Shown here piece by piece: positions 59,508 through 63,990 of a stretch of DNA of 64,000 bases; within the stretch, counting starts at the first letter, position 1; each line of letters opens with the position of its first letter. The notes beneath the pieces were generated by a model. The model did not search any database and had not been told where the DNA came from. It was given only the letters and a program-made list of their open reading frames with translations. The stretch comes from Paenibacillus sp. FSL R7-0204 (GTDB lineage: Bacteria; Bacillota; Bacilli; Paenibacillales; Paenibacillaceae), in the NCBI RefSeq assembly GCF_038002225.1, contig NZ_JBBOCA010000001.1:1736001-1800000 (forward strand). The letters are read 5' to 3'. The position numbers were made by a program, and so were the translations under genes.

Positions 59508-60158
59508 ATGAGCCGTAACCTAACTAGGACCAAGATGGGCAAGCGCAGAAAAAGAATTCTTTTTCTGTTCTTGCCCCTTCTGTTAATGCTCTTGCTGTTC
59601 CTGTGTGCGGGACGCTTCCTTCCGCTCTCGGAGATTCCCAAGCAGGCCGATGTCATTATCGTCCTCAGTGGCGGGGGAGGGCGGGTGGAGCAAGGGGTTA
59701 AGCTGTTTCAAAGTGGCTATGCGCCGCAGCTCCTGTTGTCTAACGCTAAGGAGGGGGCCGGCTCTGCCGGTGACATGCGCGAAACTGCCCTCTCCTTAGG
59801 CATCCCGGAATCTGCTATCTTGACGGAAGACGCTGCCGAGAGCACCTACCAGAACGCGCAGCTCACGCTCCCGATCATGAAGCAGAAGGGCTTCAAGTCG
59901 GCGATTGTGGTGTCGTCGGATTTTCATATGCGGCGGGTGAAGATTATCTTCGATCATGTGTATAGGAAGTCGGGGATTGCGCTGACTTATATCGGGGCGG
60001 ATTCGGGCTATAACGCGAAGACGTGGTGGAGTGACCGGTATAGCCGGGAGATGACGTTTAACGAATATATCAAGATGATTGGCAATGCCTTCGGCTACAA
60101 TGGCCCGGAAGCGAAGGGGTCGCTGGAGCAGATTAAGCGCTGGTTCCGCAGTGGTTGA
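59508..60158 (+). CDS. YdcF/SanA-like DUF218 protein
   Basis: 216 aa. N-terminal membrane span (LFLFLPLLLMLLLFLCAG, residues 18-35), then the DUF218 domain: ADVIIVLSGGGGRVEQGVKLF, LLLSNAKEGAGS, ESTYQNAQLTLP, and VVSSDFHMRRVKIIFDHV. Some relatives handle lipid-linked or envelope substrates, but the reaction is not established. The final 25 codons are repeated at 63909-63982. It closes the polysaccharide operon. Confidence 0.85.
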   Translation: MSRNLTRTKMGKRRKRILFLFLPLLLMLLLFLCAGRFLPLSEIPKQADVIIVLSGGGGRVEQGVKLFQSGYAPQLLLSNAKEGAGSAGDMRETALSLGIPESAILTEDAAESTYQNAQLTLPIMKQKGFKSAIVVSSDFHMRRVKIIFDHVYRKSGIALTYIGADSGYNAKTWWSDRYSREMTFNEYIKMIGNAFGYNGPEAKGSLEQIKRWFRSG

Positions 60159-61283: not shown

Positions 61284-62210
61284 ATGCAGATCAGCAGACT
61301 TTTCGGCATTGTTTATTACTTGCTGGAGAAAAAAGAATCTACGGGGCAAGAGCTTGCCGACCGTTTTGAAGTATCGGTTAGAACCATATATCGCGATATT
61401 GAGACCTTAAGCAGTGCTGGCATACCTGTCTATACGAATCAAGGCAGAGGCGGCGGAATCGTCATTCTTGACAAATTTATACTAAACAAGTCGTTACTTT
61501 CTGAAAAAGAACAGGATGAAATACTGCTCGCCTTGCAGAATCTATCAGCAGCGCGGTATCCGGAAATTGAGACTATTCTTTCACGATTAAGCAGCCTTTT
61601 CAAAAAGAGCGATGTGAATTGGATTGAATTGGACTTTTCTCCCTGGGGAAGTGATGAAAGAAACAAAGAAAATTTCAATGCACTAAAAATGGCAATTATA
61701 AGCAAACATATTATTATATTTGAATATTTCAATACCTCAGGTGTGAAAAGCTTACGCAGGGTTGAGCCGCTTAAGTTGATTTTTAAGGATAAGGCATGGT
61801 ATTTGAAAGCGTATTGCTATGATAAAAGAACATACAGAACATTCAAAATATCCCGTATGGCAAATATCGAAATCACTGAAGAGGTTGTGGAGCAAGAGAC
61901 ATTAGTGGAATCTGAGGCTGAAGCGACAGATAATCAATTTCAGAAATTTATTGATATTCGGTTAAAGATCTCTCCGGCGGGAGCGTATAGAATATACGAT
62001 GACTTTAGTGAAAAACAAATAACAAAACATGAAGATGGATCTTTTACTGTTAATGCATCCATGCCCGAAGGAGATTGGCTTTCAAATTACTTTCTCTCTT
62101 ATGGCCCGATTATTGAAGCGATGGAGCCTGAAAGTCTACGGGATGCTGTGATGAGCAAGATAGAGGTGATGATAGGGAATTTGAATCGAAAGGGTGGCCC
62201 TGCCTTATGA
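61284..62210 (+). CDS. YafY-family HTH/WYL-domain transcriptional regulator
   Basis: 308 aa. DeoR/HTH-11 winged helix at residues 1-58 (SRLFGIVYYLLEKKESTGQELADRFEVSVRTIYRDIETLSSAG); WYL domain about 135-210 (RRVEPLKLIFKDKAWYLKAYC); WCX-type C-terminus. GAGGTGATTGA ribosome site. Divergent to the SnoaL-like gene across 176 bases, the normal arrangement for these local regulators. Confidence 0.9.
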   Translation: MQISRLFGIVYYLLEKKESTGQELADRFEVSVRTIYRDIETLSSAGIPVYTNQGRGGGIVILDKFILNKSLLSEKEQDEILLALQNLSAARYPEIETILSRLSSLFKKSDVNWIELDFSPWGSDERNKENFNALKMAIISKHIIIFEYFNTSGVKSLRRVEPLKLIFKDKAWYLKAYCYDKRTYRTFKISRMANIEITEEVVEQETLVESEAEATDNQFQKFIDIRLKISPAGAYRIYDDFSEKQITKHEDGSFTVNASMPEGDWLSNYFLSYGPIIEAMEPESLRDAVMSKIEVMIGNLNRKGGPAL

Positions 62211-62234
62211 GACCCCTAGGGTCTCTTTTTTTTT
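62209..62234 (+). terminator. terminator overlapping the yafY-type stop codon
   Basis: GAGACCC-CTA-GGGTCTC followed by nine Ts; the stem begins on the last bases of the TGA codon. Confidence 0.85.
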
Positions 62235-62375
62235 GCCCTTATGGCAAACGGGTTGCCTGTAGTTCACGGATTAGACTAATCTGCAGCAGTCTACGTTATT
62301 GACCATTGGAATAATGTGACATATTATTACAACTATAAAAGAAATTATATTGGATTCCAGTTAGGTGGTGTTTGC

Positions 62376-63776
62376 ATGGTCCCTACTACTAGAACTATGA
62401 TACGTGATCTATTAGCGTTGCATTTGTCGCAGAAGGGAATGTCTATTCATCAATTTTCCATACAATCCGGAATTAATTCAGGAACGCTTAGCCGGATACT
62501 TAGTGGTCATCAGCCCATTGCTATGAACCATCTGGAGCGAATCACCAAGGCGATGGATCTGCCAGAGGATCATTTCTATAGCTTATATGTGGATGAATGT
62601 TTCTATTTCTCGTCACCCACTTGGCGGCGTCTGCGGCCTTTTCTTGTGCGGTCGGCTGAGCTGGGCCGTCTGGATTGCGTTGAACAGGTGGTTCAGAATC
62701 TGCTGGAGAATCTGGTCTATGCCCCCATGCTGTTCGAAGTGGCTGAAGGACTGTTTCAAGAGGGGCTGTGGCAGGCTGCCGAATTATTGTATAAGAATGT
62801 GAGTGTCAGTGAGAAGTATCAGAATTCCGAGAGACTCGCGTTATGCCAATACCGTCTATTCCGAATCGCCATTGGTGATGACCAGACGAAGAATTTGCAG
62901 GCTGCGCATCTCTTCGAATGTTACCTGGACCGGCTGGATGAAGCGGATCAGTTAGATGGATTGAAGCATCTCGCTCATGTATATGTTTCATTGAACAACT
63001 GGCTTAAGGTGGATGAGTTGGCAAAGCAAATGCAGCAATTAGCGACTCTTCGTTATAATCTCCAGCGTCAGTCGGACCGCAGAGAGAGTAACGAGGAAAA
63101 AACTGAGAAACCACTGTACTTCTACATCTTGTACGCACAGCTTATCCGTTCATATGTGTGTGAACAAATAGGAGACTACCCATCGGCATTAGATTGGGTG
63201 TCCCTCTATATGGATGGAAGCTGGATACAGGAAGACGATGGAGAAGTGAAGCGGACTGTGGCTCAGTTCCATGAGTGGGGTACCGCAAACAGACTACTCT
63301 ATCGAGTGATGCAAGGACAACACGAGGCGCTCTCTGAATATGTTGAATATATCTCCCACCGGACAGATGAGATATTTACAGCGTTATACAGTATTGTCAT
63401 ATCGGCTAACCGCTACAATTGGAATGTTGATTATATTCTGGAGCGATTTGCTGCCTATATTCCTTACCGGACGTATTCTACAGAATTTGGCGATTATAAT
63501 CGGCAGGTTATGTTGGACCAACACACTCAATTCCTTGCTGAAATGGCAGCCTATTATTTACATAATGAACGTGAAGAAGGTATTAGATTCATCCTACAAA
63601 GTTTGGAATCGTCTGCTAGAATCAATGATGAGAGAAATATTATCAAATGTGTTGATCTATTCGAACAGCATCGGCATCTGGCAGGTGAAGAAGAGCAAGA
63701 GCAATACAAACTTCTAATTAGAGAGGTGCAGGTTTCACATGAACAGAAAATTTATCAAGCTTCTAGCTTCCTGTAG
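62376..63776 (+). CDS. HTH-TPR quorum-sensing regulator, RRNPP superfamily (AimR/Alo-like)
   Basis: 466 aa. N-terminal XRE-type HTH, residues about 6-62 (RDLLALHLSQKGMSIHQFSI, then SGINSGTLSRILSGHQ), followed by about 400 residues of degenerate TPR-like helical pairs (LENLVYAPMLFEVAEGLFQEGLWQAAELLYKNV, LAHVYVSLNNWLKVDELAKQM, EMAAYYLHNEREEGI). This is the plan of peptide-sensing regulators (NprR, PlcR, AimR). Start MVPTTRT chosen behind AGGTGGTG; a frame 20 codons longer is unlikely. The last 38 bases overlap a peptide-precursor gene. It should bind DNA, with its activity switched by a short imported peptide. Confidence 0.85.
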   Translation: MVPTTRTMIRDLLALHLSQKGMSIHQFSIQSGINSGTLSRILSGHQPIAMNHLERITKAMDLPEDHFYSLYVDECFYFSSPTWRRLRPFLVRSAELGRLDCVEQVVQNLLENLVYAPMLFEVAEGLFQEGLWQAAELLYKNVSVSEKYQNSERLALCQYRLFRIAIGDDQTKNLQAAHLFECYLDRLDEADQLDGLKHLAHVYVSLNNWLKVDELAKQMQQLATLRYNLQRQSDRRESNEEKTEKPLYFYILYAQLIRSYVCEQIGDYPSALDWVSLYMDGSWIQEDDGEVKRTVAQFHEWGTANRLLYRVMQGQHEALSEYVEYISHRTDEIFTALYSIVISANRYNWNVDYILERFAAYIPYRTYSTEFGDYNRQVMLDQHTQFLAEMAAYYLHNEREEGIRFILQSLESSARINDERNIIKCVDLFEQHRHLAGEEEQEQYKLLIREVQVSHEQKIYQASSFL

Positions 63777-63882
63777 TCTGGCTATTGCAATTATTATACC
63801 GGTTGCTACTACTGAGACCGTAGCAAATATCAGCATTCAAAGTTTTATTCAAACTATGGGCCACGGTATAGGTGGCGGTTGA
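63739..63882 (+). CDS. secreted signal-peptide precursor, 47 aa (AimP/AloP/Phr-like)
   Basis: Starts inside the regulator's last codons in another frame, with AGAGGTG about 10 bases upstream. Positively charged start MNRKFIKLLA, hydrophobic core CSLAIAIIIPVA (residues 12-23), then a polar region and the C-terminus FIQTMGHGIGGG. This is the make-up of exported propeptides of RRNPP systems, whose mature 5-7 residue signal is normally cut from the C-terminus. GHGIGG is close to the SHGRGG signal I recall from a Paenibacillus polymyxa Alo system. Maturation and uptake (Opp) are inferred. Confidence 0.8.
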   Translation: MNRKFIKLLASCSLAIAIIIPVATTETVANISIQSFIQTMGHGIGGG

Positions 63883-63908: not shown

Positions 63909-63990
63909 GATGATTGGCAATGCCTTCGGCTACAATGGCCCGGAAGCTAAGGGTTCGTTGGAGCAGATCAAGCGCTGGTTCCTCAGGTAA
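63909..63990 (+). pseudogene. duplicated 3' end of the ydcF-like gene
   Basis: 74 bases matching 60074-60147 with four differences, all synonymous, continuing in frame to a TAA after WFLR. It encodes only the last 26 residues from MIGNAFGYNGPEAKG. It bounds the SnoaL/YafY/RRNPP block on the right. Confidence 0.88.

Follow-up and report, generated by a model that had tools for sequence, protein, structure and literature searches.

Near the right end of a 64,000-nt stretch of the Paenibacillus sp. FSL R7-0204 genome (the window; positions 1,736,001 to 1,800,000 of contig NZ_JBBOCA010000001.1), a gene for a predicted helix-turn-helix (HTH) and tetratricopeptide repeat (TPR) protein, here called aloR, runs into a small open reading frame (ORF), here called aloP, whose product ends in GHGIGGG. 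Do these genes form a receptor-propeptide pair of the RRNPP type, and does the peptide represent a new receptor-signal specificity, as a reading made from the letters of the window (the sequence-only reading) had proposed? Our comparisons point to a member of the Alo family, which earlier work had reported from Paenibacillus, that carries a signal variant of its own, since the receptor falls within the homology rule of PMC7425212 (BLASTP E ≤ 1e-5, at least 250 aa) and the family is already recognised in the main text of that study. We put the probability that the locus is an Alo-family (RRNPP-type) peptide quorum-sensing cassette, working by the mechanism proposed below, at about 0.86.

The receptor and propeptide genes

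By ORF reading of the window, aloR (62376..63776, + strand) begins with the ATG at 62376 and comprises 466 codons, with its stop at 63774-63776, and aloP (63739..63882, + strand) runs from the ATG at 63739 to the TGA at 63880-63882, a span of 47 codons. The two genes share 38 bases (63739..63776, + strand), with the aloP start out of frame within the end of aloR, and the aloP ATG is preceded by the ribosome binding site (RBS)-like sequence AGAGAGGTGCAGG (63720..63733, + strand), which lies within the aloR coding sequence and has similar counterparts before the 12 aloP starts inspected. The aloP product, MNRKFIKLLASCSLAIAIIIPVATTETVANISIQSFIQTMGHGIGGG, has a basic and hydrophobic signal-type N-terminus (mean hydropathy of 2.66 for the best 12-residue stretch) and the tail ...IQTM-GHGIGGG; a codon pattern for MGHGIGGG followed by a stop occurs once in the 7.71-Mb genome. 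The coordinates, overlap, codon count and tail given by the sequence-only reading agree with these to the base. The same reading had considered aloP short enough to be missed by ordinary annotation, in keeping with which no named relative was among the 5 proteins found for the peptide.

According to the main text of PMC7425212, an Alo system consists of an HTH-TPR receptor and a downstream ORF of 32-50 aa with a hydrophobic N-terminus; such systems are found essentially in Paenibacillaceae, with up to 40 receptors per genome, orphan receptors and Spo0E-like neighbours. The window pair has this composition, with an aloP of 47 aa overlapping aloR by 38 bases, a Cro/C1-type HTH at about residues 9-66 of AloR (HTH_26 match, E 3e-4; 21.4 bits, slightly below the curated cut-off of 22) and a TPR superhelix at about residues 83-458. 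The predicted model (pLDDT 88.6) shows N-terminal helices and the TPR superhelix, the fold that the sequence-only reading had called for, and in fold comparison it resembles NprR, Rap, PlcR and AimR structures, plus other TPR proteins. At the level of sequence, the link to the family is the WP_029515185.1 site on plasmid NZ_CP024796.1 of P. polymyxa ATCC 842 (40.6% identity over 97%, E 5e-102, tblastn), and it is this homologue, not AloR13, that brings the receptor within the homology rule. A sequence-profile search of the PDB with AloR gave 14 matches at E ≤ 1, with no NprR, PlcR or AimR among them; no NCBIfam model matched the receptor at its curated cut-off, and neither PHROGs nor NCBIfam added an identification. 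The receptor has 507 relatives, and the names of the 120 that were listed are generic (for example, helix-turn-helix transcriptional regulator or hypothetical protein).

Conservation of the small ORF in Paenibacillus

A profile built from the ten long receptors of the window genome (described below) matched 89 of 100 genomes of the genus, the window's own included (E ≤ 1e-40). We scored 156 loci: 10 from the same genome, 5 from named relatives (Paenibacillus tritici, P. piscarius, P. silagei, P. phytohabitans and P. sp. HW567, all Paenibacillus and so within Paenibacillaceae) and 141 from other genomes, the last comprising 29 of 30 profile-search loci (the thirtieth being the window itself) and 112 further places, from among the matches listed. 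Only complete receptor ORFs with distinct 3´ ends were counted (152), excluding 32 cut by a locus end and duplicates sharing the last 900 bases; the set takes in neither L012-L014 of the same genome nor L041-L056, which come from plasmids, viruses and phages, and one receptor (L064 and L095) is probably counted twice, in the hydrophobic class without HG. A pair was called when the receptor was followed by a small ORF with a hydrophobic N-terminus and HG within the last 10 residues.

By this rule, 94 of the 152 receptor ORFs have an HG-tailed small ORF, 9 have a hydrophobic ORF without HG and 49 have none. The HG in 94 of 94 is by construction, since it was the selection criterion, but two traits were not selected: an aloP-type start at exactly -38 (86 of 94, so that the overlap length is identical in these pairs) and Gly at the second place after HG (93 of 94). 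HG in the last 10 residues was seen in 0 of 63 non-hydrophobic candidate small ORFs. In a control set from the window and six loci, made up of open frames on both strands that are not all genes, none of 101 other ORFs with 200 codons or more passed a similar test, although 17 of them had a hydrophobic small ORF. With 94 of 152 receptors followed by an HG-tailed ORF, 86 of these at the same offset, and none in the control, the pairing is not due to chance. The sequence-only reading had staked its claim on conservation of the small ORF behind homologous regulators, and the claim withstood this test.

The 94 peptides have 53 distinct tails. The residue after HG, termed x, is of 14 types (T 18, I 14, W 14, A 12, V 9, Y 6, others), and among the 19 equal-length peptides of the window clade, M40, H42, G43 and G45 are invariant with residue 44 being Y, I, L, V, T, F or A. 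Spo0E-like ORFs, found by regular expression up to 1.3 kb downstream as far as the sequence extended, accompany 30 of the 94 pairs and 5 of the 58 other receptors. The pair is intact at the same locus in four of the five named relatives, with the tails GHGIGGG (P. tritici), NHGYGGG (P. piscarius and P. phytohabitans) and GHGYGG (P. silagei). At the P. sp. HW567 locus (L021; receptor 72%) the tail codons survive and the frame is broken ahead of them, which was scored as a miss.

The window genome itself holds 14 matches to AloR at E ≤ 1, 10 of them long (32-100% identity, AloR included). Seven of the 10 are followed by HG-type tails, GHGIGGG (window), SHGVGGS, SHGIGG, GHGTGDG, GHGWGT, THGDG and EHGVEF, with the 38-base overlap exact in 6 of these 7, and L003, L007 and L009 have no such small ORF. 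Three of the four partial matches (L012-L014) have small ORFs with the HG tails NHGAGH, SHGMGH and GHGVDY. The genome encodes about ten such receptor-peptide pairs. Spo0E-like ORFs follow the SHGIGG and GHGWGT systems (regular-expression match for both), the former also with a SpoOE-like Pfam match (E 7e-11).

A class of receptors that end near profile position 425, many with ..FEIAIS.., lacks a peptide; it comprises L007 and about 20 related loci (for example L136-L138, L143, L144, L146, L147, L150, L151, L155 and L163). Its member in the window genome sits behind the SHGIGG-Spo0E-like cassette, resembling Alo14 beside Alo13. Receptors like the tandem copy described below, ending in ..QIGAYL or near variants, were seen in other genomes, for example at L073, L090, L099, L101, L104 and L132.

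The predicted signal and its specificity

Starting from the directly observed gene layout, conservation, homology to the ATCC 842 receptor and predicted fold, we infer the following course of events. AloP would be exported via its N-terminal signal and cleaved extracellularly after Met40, give or take one residue, to release GHGIGGG (codons 41-47; 63859..63879, + strand). The heptapeptide would then be re-imported by an oligopeptide permease, bind the TPR groove of AloR and alter its action on promoters in the vicinity. If Alo13 is a guide, AloR would activate transcription and the peptide would switch it off. Likely targets are aloR's own promoter and the orphan aloR copy beside it; this orphan, 83% identical and with a similar promoter, could plausibly be either a listener or a target.

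The predicted form of the mature signal draws on conservation in the clade and on AloP13, for which the main text of PMC7425212 gives SHGRGG, inferred by mass spectrometry and acting on AloR13 in B. subtilis. The sequence-only reading had settled on GHGIGG or a one-residue variant. The tail and the one-residue range hold, and within that range analogy points most directly to the heptamer GHGIGGG, ahead of both GHGIGG and HGIGGG, because SHGRGG begins at the residue before His. The claim of a new receptor-signal specificity was overstated, because 89 of 100 genus genomes hold such receptors and the same genome encodes the near-identical SHGIGG; the tail of P. tritici is identical to that of the window. 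A full-text literature search for SHGIGG, GHGIGG, HGIGGG, GHGYGG and SHGRGG found only SHGRGG, in PMC7425212, and the words "motif", "glycine", "histidine" and "specificity" are absent from the main text of that paper; the x-H-G-x-G pattern thus did not turn up in print in these searches, though figures or supplements may show it. Searches by title gave no further Alo study among the papers listed. What the present analysis adds to the known family is a large and consistent set of mostly unnamed signal genes, a conserved signal grammar, x-H-G-x-G, and named receptor residues as candidates for specificity.

Of the alternatives, the one with most in its favor retains the Alo cassette but not a private peptide: GHGIGG(G) and its sister SHGIGG would cross-activate, making the window copy a redundant version of an Alo13-like signal. 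SHGIGG is encoded in the same genome behind a receptor 65% identical to AloR, its tail differing by one residue and the final Gly, and receptors without a peptide lie recurrently beside peptide-bearing ones, a natural set-up for crosstalk. Some level of crosstalk does exist, because several other aloP genes went down when SHGRGG was added (PMC7425212, main text). Yet x and the residue before His differ from clade to clade and may change together with receptor residues 265 and 263, a pattern for which two of five control positions gave similar P values, and we consider full cross-activation possible, if on balance unlikely.

The other alternatives are far less probable. A signal-type N-terminus and a short Gly-rich tail would suit a secreted peptide of any use, including a Gly/His-rich antimicrobial or other extracellular peptide made under an HTH-TPR regulator with no return to the cell. 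This is improbable given an overlapping receptor-peptide layout retained in 86 of 94 pairs and a conserved tail of 5-8 residues, which is short for a bacteriocin; AloP13, with a like tail, functions as a signal (PMC7425212, main text). The locus might also be a relic, a duplicated cassette in decay, as the 87.7%-identical tandem copy next door without an intact peptide and the broken peptide gene at the related locus L021 could suggest, but with both genes intact in the window copy, its promoter and RBS conserved, and orthologues intact in four named species, decay is very improbable here. Least probable of all is that the small ORF is translated solely to couple or terminate aloR translation, its product being functionless. 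Because aloP begins in another frame within the last bases of aloR, some of its conservation could stem from aloR; the HG-x-G codons, however, lie 86-97 bases past the aloR stop, beyond the overlap, and the 19 clade members vary at x and never at H, G or G, with synonymous changes at the H42 and G45 codons.

Several observations weigh against the Alo-type quorum-sensing cassette that we favor. Under the pair rule, 58 of the 152 receptor ORFs have no HG-tailed peptide, and several of these look like conserved orphan classes. Constraint outside the tail is weak, since dN/dS of the non-overlapping part of aloP is 0.27-1.16 for the window copy against 18 relatives. On the ATCC 842 plasmid, the small ORF that follows the homologue has the tail QGYIGGA, without HG, and the regular expression found no Spo0E-like match up to 1.3 kb downstream of the window copy. 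TPR and HTH folds also resemble those of many unrelated proteins, the top VIA-align rows being LGN.

In the tails the HG-x-G scaffold is fixed apart from a single hypervariable residue, x, which may set specificity; covariation gives this weak support. A tree of the 94 receptors implies 39 changes at x and 17 at the residue before H. Co-change links x most strongly to receptor residue 265 (max-statistic P 0.002, or 0.015 when the bins are finer) and the residue before H to residue 263 (P 0.002), the two lying close together at and immediately past the border of the predicted helix 247-264. Against this, two of five propeptide control positions reached P 0.015 and 0.010 (at receptor residues 195 and 286), x grouped into classes gave no signal (best P 0.36), and neither the inner helices overall (Mann-Whitney P 0.54) nor helix 247-265 (P 0.60) was enriched. 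All four columns with z ≥ 3 within residues 83-450 scored as inner (Fisher P 0.026), a value to be discounted because two helices were extended 1 residue past the model borders (206, 265), making two of the four inner; column 462 (z 3.4), in the overlap-coded tail, lies outside the Fisher test. The covariation at 263 and 265 is thus a test to run, not a result. A broader proposal, that chromosomal Alo signals across the genus share a scaffold [G/S/T/N]-H-G-x-G- in which x, and less so the residue before His, would be an address code read by residues 265 and 263, where one inner TPR helix ends, is speculative and rather doubtful. If true, new private channels could arise through one or two changes in a peptide of about 7 residues and in one receptor helix, which would explain about ten parallel channels in one genome.

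Neighborhood and relation to known systems

Upstream of aloR, an intrinsic terminator-like hairpin (GAGACCCCTAGGGTCTC and a T run; 62209..62225, + strand), 3´ of a WYL-regulator gene, aligns in relatives. It is followed by a conserved box, GTTCACGGATTAGACTAATC (62262..62281, + strand), a candidate regulator site on the basis of alignment, and by a sigma-70-type promoter, TTGACC-17-TATTAT (62299..62327, + strand); in a comparison of 23 related receptor genes, both box and promoter align with the DNA 5´ of most. Genome-wide, the box is not enriched, since 43 matches with up to 2 mismatches compare with 39 for the reversed pattern; two of its three exact matches precede aloR and its tandem copy. 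This second aloR (83% identical, no intact peptide, changed 3´ end) lies just right of the window at contig positions 1800253-1801590 (L016 3254-4606). The last 78 bases of a DUF218 gene (60074-60151) recur behind aloP at 63909..63986 (+ strand) with 93.6% identity, a scar that marks the duplication boundary, and a similar copy follows aloP in P. tritici.

The simplest gene order is that of P. piscarius, rfbB-DUF218-aloR-aloP-50 aa ORF-M24 peptidase (sugar-nucleotide names by eye); in the window, SnoaL and WYL genes precede aloR, and the DUF218 3´-end copy and, just past the window, the second aloR follow aloP. We read this arrangement as a probable tandem duplication with decay of the second peptide, an HGIG remnant of which is still present at the second copy in P. 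phytohabitans. The neighbors (sugar-nucleotide genes, by eye, DUF218, SnoaL, WYL, the aloR copy and M24 peptidase) are in several cases conserved in order in the named relatives. A conserved 50-aa ORF (MPNYYFREMWTPLR...) lies near alo cassettes in L016 (4728-4877) and L017-L020, directly before the M24 peptidase gene in L016, L018 and L019; it had no Pfam match and is a possible AloR target. An ORF of 744 aa farther along (contig 1803866-1806100; L016 6867-9101) contains internal DNA repeats of about 250 bases (73-76% identity), and its N-terminal part is presumably S-layer-like. An Rfam scan of 6 kb of L016 gave no match.

Homologues of AloR also occur on mobile elements. In Brevibacillus phage SecTim467 (L051), a homologue 29% identical lies directly behind a gene annotated Spo0E, and the small ORF that overlaps its 3´ end lacks an HG tail and gave no Pfam match. 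Tails ending in GGA, GGF or GGS (for example QHGGA, QVGGA and YIGGA), possibly a second tail class, follow AloR homologues on viral contigs and P. polymyxa plasmids (L041, L042, L044, L045, L047-L050, L053 and L054); L046 (HHGEI) and L056 (HIGSF) differ, and the plasmid loci L052 and L055 retain HGxG. The text of PMC10075063 (RRNPP_Detector) treats AloR as one known subfamily and includes an AloR-AloP system on a Brevibacillus plasmid.

Among the other RRNPP systems, the AloR model has structural matches to NprR and PlcR of Bacillus, at the level of fold only, neither being among the 14 PDB profile matches. In NprR-NprX and PlcR-PapR, too, the gene for a cytoplasmic HTH-TPR transcription factor is followed by a small propeptide gene, but the NprX and PapR tails differ from GHGIGGG. 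Rap proteins lack an N-terminal HTH, whereas the window receptor has an HTH_26 match and N-terminal helices in its model. AimR-AimP is phage-encoded and controls aimX; no phage gene was recognised by eye from 56 to 64 kb of the window and in the 12 kb downstream, where no prophage search was made.

Neither AloR13 nor its exact peptide was found in the 100 genus genomes, since the AloP13 propeptide as protein query gave weak matches in 4 genomes (E 0.23-0.80), with no Alo pair at the two loci inspected (L022 and L025), and a degenerate codon pattern covering SHGRGG and a stop, and admitting some other residues as well, gave 15 matches in 14 genomes, 0 of 15 being, by eye, a signal-type propeptide behind a receptor. 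The window pair differs from Alo13 in species and locus, lying beside apparent dTDP-rhamnose synthesis genes (by eye), in a tail one residue longer with I for R and G for S, in having no Spo0E-like match beside it, and in a next-door receptor that is a tandem duplicate without a peptide. Its likeness is nonetheless closest to the Alo systems of P. polymyxa, and to Alo13 especially, in an HTH-TPR receptor followed, here with overlap, by a short ORF, in the tail GHGIGGG as compared with SHGRGG, and in many paralogues per genome, orphan receptors, and Spo0E-like genes beside some of the paralogues; as an RRNPP-type receptor-propeptide pair, which the layout, the conserved small ORF and the HTH and TPR model all bear out, it is best placed next to Alo.
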